Translations under genes and position numbers: made by a program | NCBI RefSeq assembly: GCF_027706745.1 | Contig: NZ_JAQFWP010000039.1 | Coordinates: 1-64,000, forward strand | Length of the DNA stretch: 64,000 nucleotides | Direction of reading: 5' to 3' | Origin: Nocardiopsis suaedae | GTDB taxonomy: Bacteria > Actinomycetota > Actinomycetes > Streptosporangiales > Streptosporangiaceae | Part shown: piece by piece, positions 37,662-41,649 of the stretch | How the letters are laid out: each line of letters opens with the position of its first letter | Position numbering within the stretch: position 1 is the first letter of the stretch | The notes under the pieces: model-generated | Databases searched by the model: none | Told to the model about the DNA's origin: nothing | Seen by the model: the letters and a program-made list of their open reading frames with translations, nothing else

Positions 37662-38132
37662 TCACCACGCCAGGTGGCCACAAAGACCCTGCCCCGCCCC
37701 TCTCGGCGATGATCTCGACGATAGTGCTGCCAAAATCGCCAGAATGGCAGCACCATCGTCGAGATCATCGCTGCAAGGGCGCACCGGCCCGCCGACCGCC
37801 GGTTCGTCGGGGTCCTGATTTCCGCGCAGCGCCTCGTCGGCGGCGATGATTTCCTGGTACCACTGCCGATGGACCTTGTATGTGCGGTCGAGCTCGATCT
37901 CGTGGTACAGCCCGGTCGGCTTGCCGAACCAGAAGTCGCGGGGGAGGCGCTGCGTTTCGCGACCGCCCACGATGAGGATCGCCCGGTCGGTGACCACGAT
38001 CCACTCCGCCGGCCACGTGAAGATCCCCGAACCCTTGATCGTCAGGAAACCCGTCTGGATCTGCTCCCCGGTCTCCAGATGCGGATCCGCGAGGGTGGAA
38101 ATCTTCTCGGCTCGTCGTTCCTTGTAGCCCAC
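37662..38132 (-). CDS. PH-like domain protein with palindrome-extended C-terminus
   Basis: 156 aa. Residues about 5-100 look like a small bacterial PH-like beta-barrel: HLETGEQIQTGFLTIKGSG, then WIVVTDRAILIVGGRE and LYHEIELDRTYKVHRQWYQE. The GTG start has a textbook GGAGG 6 bases ahead, and the frame upstream of it is not conserved-looking. The final ~35 residues (from about 122) are simply the translation of the dispersed palindrome at 37708-37769 and beyond, so that element has probably displaced the original stop. GC content is lower than in the envelope genes to the left. The function is unknown. Confidence 0.75.
   Translation of the reverse strand: MGYKERRAEKISTLADPHLETGEQIQTGFLTIKGSGIFTWPAEWIVVTDRAILIVGGRETQRLPRDFWFGKPTGLYHEIELDRTYKVHRQWYQEIIAADEALRGNQDPDEPAVGGPVRPCSDDLDDGAAILAILAALSSRSSPRGAGQGLCGHLAW
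37708..37769. terminator. Dispersed palindrome, copy 2
   Basis: Arms 37708-37732 and 37745-37769 (25 bases each) pair with a single mismatch around the loop aaatcgccagaa. Compared with copy 1, arm position 15 is T:A instead of A:T, a compensatory change that keeps the stem. It lies at the 3' side of dprE1, inside the end of the convergent PH-like reading frame. Confidence 0.87.
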
Positions 38133-38311
38133 AGCATTCCTCCGGCACGCATGGTCTGAATCGCTGATTCGTGTGCAATGGGCGGCGGGTCTCCAGGGCT
38201 CCGTCGGATCTCCGGTACGGAAATCCACGTGGCGCGCAGCCTGCGCACCGTACCAACGCGCAGACAGGAGGAGTTAGAGGGGTTCGACGCCGTTGGGCTT
38301 CCTGAAGAACG
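38133..38311. other. 179-bp gap between the PH-like and methyltransferase genes
   Basis: No gene seen. It contains the ribosome site and presumably the promoter of the PH-like gene. tggcgcgcagcctgcgcacc (38231-38250) is a weak dyad. Nothing else is supportable. Confidence 0.4.
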
Positions 38312-39487
38312 TCACGCCGATCGCCGTGGCAACAGCCGATCCGGGGCTCGCAGCCATGCCTGTTGCGCGCCGTCGGCGGTCACCGTGAGGCCGAACTCCT
38401 CAACGCCGGGGCGACCCTGCCGCTCCCACCACGTCCACGCCGCTTCGACGTCGTCCCAGAGGGAGCGCGGTCCGGACTGGTGGACCCGGCCCGTGCCCGT
38501 GTCGCCGTCGAAGACCGCCGCCGCCCAGGACCGATCGGACAGGCCGTAGACCCAGACGACCGTGCGGTGCTCGTCGTCATGGCGCACGTGGACCGCCTCA
38601 TCGACCAGCAGGCCGAGCACGAAGGCAGGTGATCCGTAGGGGTCCTTCGGCGCGATGTCATCGGCGGTCAGGGATGTCGTCGAGGTCCGTCCCGGCCAGT
38701 CGTGAACGTGCCTGTCTCCGCCGGGCCATGCCAGCCTCTGCGACCGCGCCTTCATGAACTGCACCGGTCCCGTGAAGCGGCCCGAAGCGCTCAGCCCGTC
38801 CTCTGCGACGACCAACCGCGCCACGGCGTCCTGGGGCGAGAAGTCGGTTCCCCAGGGCACCAGGAGGATGCCGCCCGGGCGGGTCTGGGTCACCCAGGTA
38901 GCCGGAACCGTGCGCAGGCCGAAGGTCGCGATCACCCGGTCGAAGGGTGCGCGGTCCGGGGCGCCGAGCAGTCCGTCGCCAGCCACGACGTGCACGTCCC
39001 CGCCGACCCGGCGGAGGTTGTCCCTGGCGGCGCGCGCGATCTCCGGATCGGCCTCGATGCTCGTCACCGCGTGCGGTCCGAGCCGGTGGGCGAGCAGGGC
39101 CGCGTTCCATCCGGTGCCGGTCCCCAGTTCCAGGACGGTCATCCCGGGGTGGGCGTCGAGGTCGCGCAGCATGGAGGCCACGACCGAAGGCATCGACGCC
39201 GAAGAGGTGGGGACCGTGCCGTGCCGGGGCGACCCGTATGCGCCGTCGTCCCATTGCACGGTGATCGGTGCATCGGCTGTGGCCCAATAGGTCCATGACT
39301 CGGGCGACGCCGTGCGGTCCACCAGGCTGCTCTGCCCGGTGCGGGTGTCGAAGGCCCACATCTTCTCAGGGAGGAATGCGGACCGGGGCAGCTCTTTGAA
39401 GGCCGGTGCCCACTCGGGGGTCAGCGCGCCCGCCTCCAGAAGCATGCTGATCAGTTCTTCGGAGGCGGGCACAGGGGGCATGCTCAC
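38312..39487 (-). CDS. Protein-L-isoaspartate methyltransferase-like enzyme with C-terminal extension
   Basis: 391 aa. The first ~220 residues are a PIMT fold: an N-terminal KELPRSAFLPEKMW helix, motif I TVLELGTGTGWNAALLA near residue 115, SIEADPEIARAARDNL, and PFDRVIATFGLRTVPATWV. The extra ~170 residues (FMKARSQRLAWPGGDRHVHD onwards) are absent from repair PIMTs but typical of the methyltransferases of RiPP systems (graspetide and FxLD types), where methylation of Asp leads to aspartimide. The GTG start overlaps the stop of a 27-residue peptide gene (GTGA), so the two are coupled. No ATP-grasp, LanM or lasso enzyme is nearby. A role in peptide modification is inference; a protein-repair role is the alternative. 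Confidence 0.83.
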   Translation of the reverse strand: MSMPPVPASEELISMLLEAGALTPEWAPAFKELPRSAFLPEKMWAFDTRTGQSSLVDRTASPESWTYWATADAPITVQWDDGAYGSPRHGTVPTSSASMPSVVASMLRDLDAHPGMTVLELGTGTGWNAALLAHRLGPHAVTSIEADPEIARAARDNLRRVGGDVHVVAGDGLLGAPDRAPFDRVIATFGLRTVPATWVTQTRPGGILLVPWGTDFSPQDAVARLVVAEDGLSASGRFTGPVQFMKARSQRLAWPGGDRHVHDWPGRTSTTSLTADDIAPKDPYGSPAFVLGLLVDEAVHVRHDDEHRTVVWVYGLSDRSWAAAVFDGDTGTGRVHQSGPRSLWDDVEAAWTWWERQGRPGVEEFGLTVTADGAQQAWLRAPDRLLPRRSA

Positions 39488-39567
39488 TTCTCGTGCCTGC
39501 CGGGCGGCGGCGGGGGCGGTGGTGGCGGCTTCGGCATGTCCTTCGGAGGGCCTTCATGCTTGGCCAT
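39484..39567 (-). CDS. 27-residue proline-rich peptide, possible RiPP precursor
   Basis: 27 aa: MAKHEGPPKDMPK, then nine consecutive prolines (residues 14-22), then GRHEK. GAGAGGTG stands 5 bases before the ATG, and the TGA shares bases with the methyltransferase GTG (GTGA), which argues for real translation. It has one aspartate (Asp10), no cysteine, serine or threonine, and a basic, highly soluble composition. A precursor of a methyltransferase-modified peptide is possible because of the coupling. A simple translational-coupling leader, or an unmodified partner protein, are alternatives. I know of no family it belongs to. Confidence 0.6.
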   Translation of the reverse strand: MAKHEGPPKDMPKPPPPPPPPPGRHEK

Positions 39568-39824
39568 CGGTCACCTCTCAGGGGGCGTGGTCGTCAGGCG
39601 AAGGAGGAGTCGGGAGCCGGAGAGGCTTCCGTTCATGATTCCCGGTCGCCGGGGGCGGGGCACTCGTCTTCGCGAAGTAAGCGGGTGGGTGCGGACGAGG
39701 GAGGACCGCCCGGCGAGGGACCCACGAACCCTCGCCGGGCGGGTGGCCGCCGCTGCCCTCCGAACTGGGCGGCCGGGGAGCCGTCGGCCCGGGGGTCGAC
39801 TGGGCCGACAGCGGGTGCGGGAGG
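39568..39824. other. 257-bp gap upstream of the proline-rich peptide gene
   Basis: No convincing gene. A 21-codon frame (39571-39636, minus) ends 3 bases before the peptide start but lacks a good ribosome site. The region is GC-rich without an obvious terminator, so the peptide and methyltransferase could be transcribed from here or from 40408. Confidence 0.4.
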
Positions 39825-40229
39825 TCAGGCGCGCGGTGTTCTCGCGAATCGGCAGCCGGTCGGACGCGGCTGTGGAGGAGTTCCACGCGCCACGGTCGGG
39901 GACGCCCTGGGGGCGGGGGCCGGGGCGGCCGGTTCCGCGAGGTGGCGACGCTCCCCGGACGCCTGGTCCGCGTCGTGGGCCTGGTGGGGGCCGGGCGTCG
40001 GCGGCAGGCGGCGCAGGCGGTCGTCGGCCTGTTCGAGGGCGGCGGCGAAGGACGCCAGGTCATGGCAGGCGACCTCGAAGTCGTGCCGGGCGTGCTGGGC
40101 GGTGAAGAGCAGCGCCGCGCCGTCGGTGGTGTAGCCGAGTCCCCAGGCAGGGGCGTAGTGCAGGGCCAGTTCGACGAAGCGGGCGTAATCGCCGCCTTCG
40201 AGCCGGGGGAGCGTGTAGGAGACGCTCAT
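39825..40229 (-). CDS. Small protein of unknown function, 134 aa
   Basis: 134 aa. Residues 1-75 look folded (YTLPRLEGGDYARFVELALH, then APAWGLGYTTDGAALLFTAQ and a helix LASFAAALEQADDRLRR); the remainder is a Pro/Ala/Arg-rich tail that may be disordered. No family recognised. The ATG has GGAGG 8 bases ahead and overlaps the stop of the upstream 60-aa gene (ATGA), so both are likely translated together. It is transcribed away from the XRE-DUF397 pair, an arrangement in which the XRE protein often controls its neighbours. Confidence 0.65.
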   Translation of the reverse strand: MSVSYTLPRLEGGDYARFVELALHYAPAWGLGYTTDGAALLFTAQHARHDFEVACHDLASFAAALEQADDRLRRLPPTPGPHQAHDADQASGERRHLAEPAAPAPAPRASPTVARGTPPQPRPTGCRFARTPRA

Positions 40230-40408
40230 CGGGCCACCTCCGGCCGGACCGCCAGCAGCTCGCGGACGAGCGGGGCGAGCTCGGCGCGGAGCGCGTCGAG
40301 GCCGTCGTTGTGGGCGGGGCCGCCGGGTCGGGGCCGTGCGTGACGGCCACGCGGGCGCGGGGGCCGCGGCGTCGTCAGCAGGGACCATAGAGACCGCAGG
40401 TAGGACAT
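40226..40408 (-). CDS. Small basic protein of unknown function, 60 aa
   Basis: 60 aa. The N-terminus MSYLRSLWSLL is amphipathic or weakly hydrophobic, then comes a Pro/Arg-rich stretch and a C-terminal helix (LDALRAELAPLVRELLAVRP). No family recognised. GGGGG lies 4 bases before the ATG. Coupled to the 134-aa gene by an ATGA overlap, it heads the leftward operon that may include the proline-rich peptide and the PIMT-like gene. Its start lies in the AT-rich divergent promoter region opposite the XRE regulator. Confidence 0.6.
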   Translation of the reverse strand: MSYLRSLWSLLTTPRPPRPRGRHARPRPGGPAHNDGLDALRAELAPLVRELLAVRPEVAR

Positions 40409-41448: not shown

Positions 41449-41649
41449 ATGAACTCGATCATCATCAATGAGGTGTCCGGCCGGTTCCGCAAGTCCTCGT
41501 ACTCGAAGACGAACGACTGCGTCGAGGTCGCGGACGCCCCCGGAACGAGCGCGATGCGCGACACGAGGCATCGTGACCTCGGCTCCCTGCACTTCGGCTC
41601 GCCCGAGTGGCAGGCGTTCATCGAGGCCGCGAAGCACGGCGAGATCTGA
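41449..41649 (+). CDS. DUF397 small regulatory partner
   Basis: 66 aa. RFRKSSYSKTNDCVEVADAP and AMRDTRHRDLGSLHFGSPEW are the DUF397 signature (WRKSSYS...NCVEVA...VRDSK...L.F....W..F). These proteins are made together with XRE/DUF5753 regulators and in Streptomyces WhiJ-type systems counteract or modulate them. AGAGAGAAG precedes the ATG. A hairpin at 41670-41699 ends the transcript. Confidence 0.93.
   Translation: MNSIIINEVSGRFRKSSYSKTNDCVEVADAPGTSAMRDTRHRDLGSLHFGSPEWQAFIEAAKHGEI

Follow-up and report, generated by a model that had tools for sequence, protein, structure and literature searches.

Type I pamtides, also called imiditides, are described as a precursor whose sole enzyme is a PIMT of the RiPP type (PMC10787088, PMC13001092). 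Lee 2023 (PMC10787088) gives more than 1,500 pamtide clusters in which the primary enzyme is a PAMT, and a review (PMC13001092) gives 1,414 clusters of type I. According to these two papers (PMC10787088, PMC13001092), the type I enzymes act on a linear peptide that has no other modification and methylate an Asp in it to yield an aspartimide, which can hydrolyse; for SpaM, Lee et al. (PMC10787088) note that there was no direct confirmation of isoAsp.

The locus analysed here is located in a window of 64,000 nt (positions 1 to 64,000) of contig NZ_JAQFWP010000039.1 (C39) of Nocardiopsis suaedae (GCF_027706745.1), a draft assembly of 139 contigs. As in the type I pamtides SpaA-SpaM and NmaA-NmaM, there are two genes with a small precursor adjoining a PIMT homologue, the enzyme has an extra C-terminal domain with a WxxxGxP motif, the peptide C-terminus is basic, and there is no ATP-grasp or LanC match on the contig. 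Unlike those systems, the N. suaedae peptide does not have the conserved Asp and is 27 residues long, compared with approximately 45 for type I pamtides and 33-34 for the sibling peptides described below; it also differs in composition, with 12 Pro against only 2 Gly and one Asp. The original prediction had presented the locus as an undescribed peptide system, a claim that has to be given up because type I pamtides have this layout in the published descriptions (PMC10787088, PMC13001092). From the sequence comparison we call the locus a derived type I pamtide/imiditide and not a full member, as the layout and the enzyme fit while the conserved Asp fails. In the most probable reading, the modifiable Asp of a type I pamtide precursor was lost here and the locus is likely to be decaying.

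Layout of the locus and class of the enzyme

The features of the locus and its surroundings, by window coordinates and strand, are as follows.

38312-39487, minus strand: PIMT-like methyltransferase of the PAMT type, 391 aa, GTG start
39484-39567, minus strand: precursor-like peptide of 27 aa, belonging in shortened form to the KHEGP...PDGGPPPGRHEK family (ORF and sibling comparison)
39484-39487, minus strand: GTGA overlap of the peptide stop and the methyltransferase GTG start (read from the letters; an NTGA overlap is also present in seven intact siblings)
39499-39528, minus strand: proline run plus Gly in place of the siblings' PD(G/S)G core (sibling comparison)
39572-39579, minus strand: GAGAGGTG, a ribosome-binding-site-like (SD-like) sequence four bases upstream of the peptide ATG (read directly)
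39825-40229, minus strand: 134-aa protein, uncharacterised neighbour, judged a member of the XRE-DUF397 module
40226-40408, minus strand: 60-aa protein, uncharacterised neighbour, whose matches adjoin the 134-aa relative in L129 and L130
40546-41439, plus strand: XRE regulator with DUF5753, neighbour (Pfam)
41449-41649, plus strand: DUF397 protein, neighbour (Pfam)

The peptide, MAKHEGPPKDMPKPPPPPPPPPGRHEK, contains 12 Pro including nine consecutive ones, 2 Gly, one Asp (D10) and no Cys. Its coupling to the methyltransferase through GTGA and its own ribosome-binding-like site, both predicted originally, are evident from the letters, and a small precursor gene coupled to the enzyme is a defining feature of type I pamtides. 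The methyltransferase frame is open and intact. A PCMT match covers residues 95-216 of 391 (2.4e-29, Pfam) and leaves approximately 175 residues after it, which confirms the RiPP-type C-terminal extension proposed earlier and agrees with the extension of more than 100 residues that defines type I enzymes. A structural model aligned with 1DL5 over residues 8-382 (VIA-align), where 1DL5 was fifth by Z and within 1 of the top; the matches listed cover mainly residues 2-251, and the assignment of the C-terminal domain therefore rests mainly on 1DL5. This domain includes WERQGRP at residue 354, a WxxxGxP motif that was present in 67 of the 78 enzymes compared and missing from L033. Since enzymes adjoining ATP-grasp matches also have the motif, it is not specific.

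Four described classes were considered and set aside. The repair PIMT (Pcm) has the catalytic domain in common with the N. suaedae enzyme, and the Thermotoga maritima PIMT 1DL5 is also C-terminally extended; unlike the repair form, the N. suaedae enzyme is coupled to a peptide and has the long region after the PCMT match, and it scored 83 bits against the TIGR00080 equivalog cut-off of 159.05. Group 13 graspetides (graspimiditides) have a homologous methyltransferase and, in the part of PMC13097080 that treats them, DUF397-DUF5753 nearby as in the window. This class was rejected as C39 has no ATP-grasp (TIGR04187) match and the enzyme was below the TIGR04188 cut-off (291.6 against 380 bits). 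FxLD lanthipeptides were excluded by a TIGR04364 score of 120 bits (cut-off 320) and by the lack of a LANC_like match on C39. Type II pamtides, or cysimiditides, share the two-gene layout with a PAMT and were rejected because a peptide with no Cys cannot have their two CxxCxGxG motifs.

As in type I pamtides, primary enzymes of other RiPP classes were not found in the cluster, on the basis of a genome-wide search with TIGR04187 and LANC_like and a Pfam scan of 11 window proteins; the earlier statement that the locus has no ATP-grasp or Lan enzyme was correct for C39. Elsewhere in the genome, TIGR04187 matched on C59 and C14 and LANC_like on C6 and C9. The TIGR04187 matches in N. suaedae were below the cut-off, as were all those in the control, where 7 of 14 genomes had a match. 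Further long PIMT-like enzymes are encoded on C15 (L002), C30 (L003), C59 (L004) and C14 (L005). L002 has a coupled 46-aa Gly/Asp-rich peptide, L004 adjoins the TIGR04187 match on its contig (299 bits, cut-off 350) and L005 a short one (94 bits), and the enzymes of L004 and L005 fall outside the clade of the window enzyme in a tree of 78 enzymes. Outside C39, N. suaedae so has a second locus of the type I-like kind and one or two that are graspetide-like.

Sibling peptides and wider relatives

Relatives of the enzyme were collected by seven genome searches (in partly overlapping sets of 1, 6, 297, 345, 394, 392 and 40 genomes), a scan of genome contigs (three loci, one of them N. chromatogenes) and a search of plasmids (15 records). 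Seven relatives (L010 and L032-L037) with enzymes 53-61% identical to that of the window all encode a peptide of 33-34 aa in the identical 4-base (NTGA) overlap. The consensus of these sibling peptides is MxKHEGPxQP...PPxPD(G/S)GPxPGRHEK, with deviations in L010 (ending RREK), L034 (ending HGK) and L036 (a TTG start and RREGP). All seven have exactly one Asp, always inside PD(G/S)G, with the residue after the Asp being Gly in five and Ser in two.

The sibling peptides gave a pooled pS of 0.63 and pN of 0.14, a ratio of 0.22 (15 pairs among the six 34-aa sequences), in a check for purifying selection that had been put forward with the original prediction. Among the same six sequences the first codon position varied at 9 of 33 codons, the second at 13 and the third at 29. 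Judging from this ratio and the mostly third-position variation, the sibling ORF family is a real gene under purifying selection.

Homologous loci without a peptide had been named in advance as a finding that would speak against the peptide. A coupled precursor-like peptide was found in 59 of the 78 enzyme loci compared, with none or an unclear case in the other 19, and the peptide was not refuted. A rule for a coupled MxxH peptide identified 44 loci, of which 35 showed the 4-base overlap, and one of the 44, L014, was removed as plainly a chance hit. The 34 loci missed by the rule included L009, L036 and L011, which have the peptide by comparison, 14 that were left unread and 17 that were read by eye; 13 of the latter have a coupled frame, L046, L048 and L065 do not, and L075 is unclear.

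Among wider relatives the Asp can be near the N-terminus (DGHKP and DGQW types). In a second genus, probably Streptomyces given that L153 matches L091, a locus on a Streptomyces plasmid, exactly over the coupled peptide and the neighbouring residues compared, PDG was present in the coupled frame of 27 of 29 loci read. L148 (PDP) and L152 (no peptide seen) were the exceptions and indicate that the PDG rule is not absolute. This search gave 60 places in 50 of 392 genomes, comprising the 29 new loci read, L087 and L088, and 29 left unread; any open frame ending at the enzyme start was counted, with start codons not fixed. Many of the peptides in L138-L166 of this genus resemble ...LPGEPYPGP..PPTPDGGPGVPNPPK or ...HPGQPWTP..PPPDG..GDGTHRK, forming recognisable subfamilies with a common PDG core and differing ends. 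Another genus (G222, G104, G227; L038-L040, L059-L067) encodes as many as six of these enzymes in one genome, many of them with MGDHxxKP... peptides, a local expansion.

A maximum likelihood tree of the 78 enzymes placed the window in a clade of ten (support 95/88) with L009 (N. chromatogenes, the same locus as L029), L010, L032-L037 and L045. The coupled peptides of all nine other loci have PD(G/S)G, and the sister group of L087, L088, L090, L091 and L092 (support 91/76) has PDG too. In L045 (G288:C70) the KHEGP...SPDSGPPPGQHEK peptide frame is intact and the N-terminal part of the enzyme is in another frame, damage of the reverse type to that in the window.

Neighbouring genes

The ATGA overlap of the 60-aa and 134-aa ORFs and the XRE-DUF397 pair facing them were as originally described (ORFs, Pfam). 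The XRE-DUF397 pair, presented originally as adjoining the peptide system, occurs near the enzyme in only part of its relatives, at differing places. An XRE match was present in 5 of 14 regions around other relatives (L094, L097, L101, L103 and L104), at variable distances, and two of these (L094 and L097) also had a DUF397 match; twelve of these regions were of 15 kb, while L102 (12.2 kb) and L105 (8.4 kb) end at contig ends. Neither family was found in three 9-kb plasmid regions around relatives. XRE-DUF5753 genes are common: the 7-Mb N. suaedae genome has 26 XRE matches, two of which are adjoining pieces. The five XRE regions may be above this background, which would amount to a loose association of XRE-DUF397 with such enzymes. 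A tendency of this kind would fit a remark in the section of PMC13097080 on graspetide groups 11 and 13, with which DUF397-DUF5753 is there said to co-occur.

A search of 60 genomes with the 134-aa protein gave 12 matches, spread over four genomes that all belong to the genus of the window, and an XRE match was present at 8 of the 10 loci fetched, the window included. The family is thus multi-copy, restricted to this genus among the 60 genomes and mostly adjoins XRE genes. The 60-aa and 134-aa proteins are possibly an extra partner of XRE-DUF397 modules, and the XRE, DUF397, 60-aa and 134-aa genes look like one separate neighbouring module. As parts of the peptide system these genes were rejected because only some relatives have XRE or DUF397 nearby, their places differ and the 134-aa protein mostly accompanies XRE genes.

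On the other side of the methyltransferase, between it and an FAD-binding gene, is an unclassified ORF (37662-38228, minus strand). Its 3' part contains an inverted repeat (37698-37779) with arms of 35 nt that are 89% complementary and 12 nt apart, and may represent a terminator or what is left of an element.

Loss of the core and competing explanations

The N. suaedae peptide has ends similar to those of its siblings (MAKHEGPP... and ...PGRHEK), is approximately seven residues shorter and does not include the PD(G/S)G core. Its sole Asp is D10 in K-D-M-P, at a position where none of the seven siblings has an Asp, and the N-terminal half also deviates from the siblings (KDMPK). Asp10 and the nine prolines, singled out at the outset as marks of the peptide, are present as stated; the conservation expected of them was not found in the relatives, where the Asp is in PD(G/S)G, and both are so derived features. 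A conserved Asp near a conserved Pro or Gly, as in type I pamtide precursors, is missing from the window peptide.

The nearest relative is in N. chromatogenes YIM 90109 (L029), with an enzyme 86% identical and flanks that are 94% (GyrI-like) and 95% (FAD-binding) identical in the matched parts. The distance from the GyrI-like match to the enzyme start is approximately 0.3 kb in L029 and 2.4 kb in the window, and the XRE, 60-aa and 134-aa proteins had no match in the 3.4-kb contig of N. chromatogenes. The end of a DUF397 gene on the opposite strand, 39% identical to that of the window over 33 residues, abuts the L029 peptide, which retains HPDGGPPPGRHEK and has a different N-terminus. The enzyme has LEPGTGTG where eight others of the alignment have LE(L/I/V)GTGTG. 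By this comparison the N. chromatogenes locus is damaged too, in another way than the window. The dN/dS of 0.32 between the two enzymes is an average that includes the time before the lesions and indicates selection on both for much, if not all, of the period after they diverged.

Relatives have a peptide of approximately 34 residues, with one Asp in PD(G/S)G, whose ORF overlaps the gene of its own PIMT-like enzyme. By analogy with SpaA/SpaM and NmaA/NmaM, the enzyme would methylate the core Asp to give an aspartimide and, by hydrolysis, isoAsp. In N. suaedae an in-frame loss of approximately seven residues would have removed the core, and slippage between CCG-rich stretches would be the simplest cause as proline codons flank the missing part. 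The enzyme frame stayed, and the cognate peptide is most likely no longer modified, so that the locus would decay. That the peptide lost the very Asp expected to be modified makes a decaying locus more likely than a new system. The open frame and the dN/dS of the enzyme count against decay, and so do the peptide start, SD-like site, ends, overlap and single Asp that were all retained, the N-terminal Asp of wider relatives and the exceptions L148 and L152.

A locus that shed its PD(G/S)G core and kept a working enzyme, either re-targeted to Asp10 of the nine-proline peptide or with a substrate in trans, is considered unlikely. The first of these, a functional pamtide whose shortened peptide is now modified at Asp10 (K-D-M-P), is favoured by the intact frames of both genes, the intact SD-like site and overlap, the dN/dS of 0.32 and the N-terminal Asp motif of other type I-like subgroups. 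It is nevertheless rather improbable because D10 occurs in no sibling, is followed by Met and not by Gly or Ser, and belongs to a locus whose enzyme clusters with PD(G/S)G enzymes in the tree.

Action in trans, with a different peptide or protein as substrate and the 27-aa ORF as a mere translational coupler, would account for an enzyme that is intact despite having no obvious cognate core, and the second type I-like locus of the genome (L002) could be read in its favour; L002, however, has its own enzyme, and no second PD(G/S)GxxPG precursor was found in the 64-kb window. A genome-wide DNA pattern allowing up to two mismatches gave 599+584 matches compared with 499+502 in the control, which makes the pattern too loose to be informative, and the sole exact match (L108), the only one inspected, was inside no precursor-like small ORF. 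We regard this explanation as very improbable. An assembly error hiding a full-length peptide and an ordinary type I pamtide locus, for which the draft state of this single genome in 139 contigs and its GC-rich proline codons might be cited, is scarcely credible as the reading frame is preserved, the absent segment does not exactly repeat the adjoining sequence and the N-terminal half deviates as well.

As a new peptide system the locus would not matter, its kind being already known. If re-targeting or action in trans were true, the enzymes would recognise the peptide ends and not the core, and the modified site could move. Read as a decaying type I pamtide locus, it looks like a natural core deletion in a young RiPP class, with the coupling, the peptide ends and the enzyme clade kept and the target Asp gone. 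Together with its siblings, a strongly conserved family (PPxPD(G/S)GPxPGRHEK), the locus offers a ready test of the substrate needs of the enzyme and of whether an orphaned enzyme is still active.
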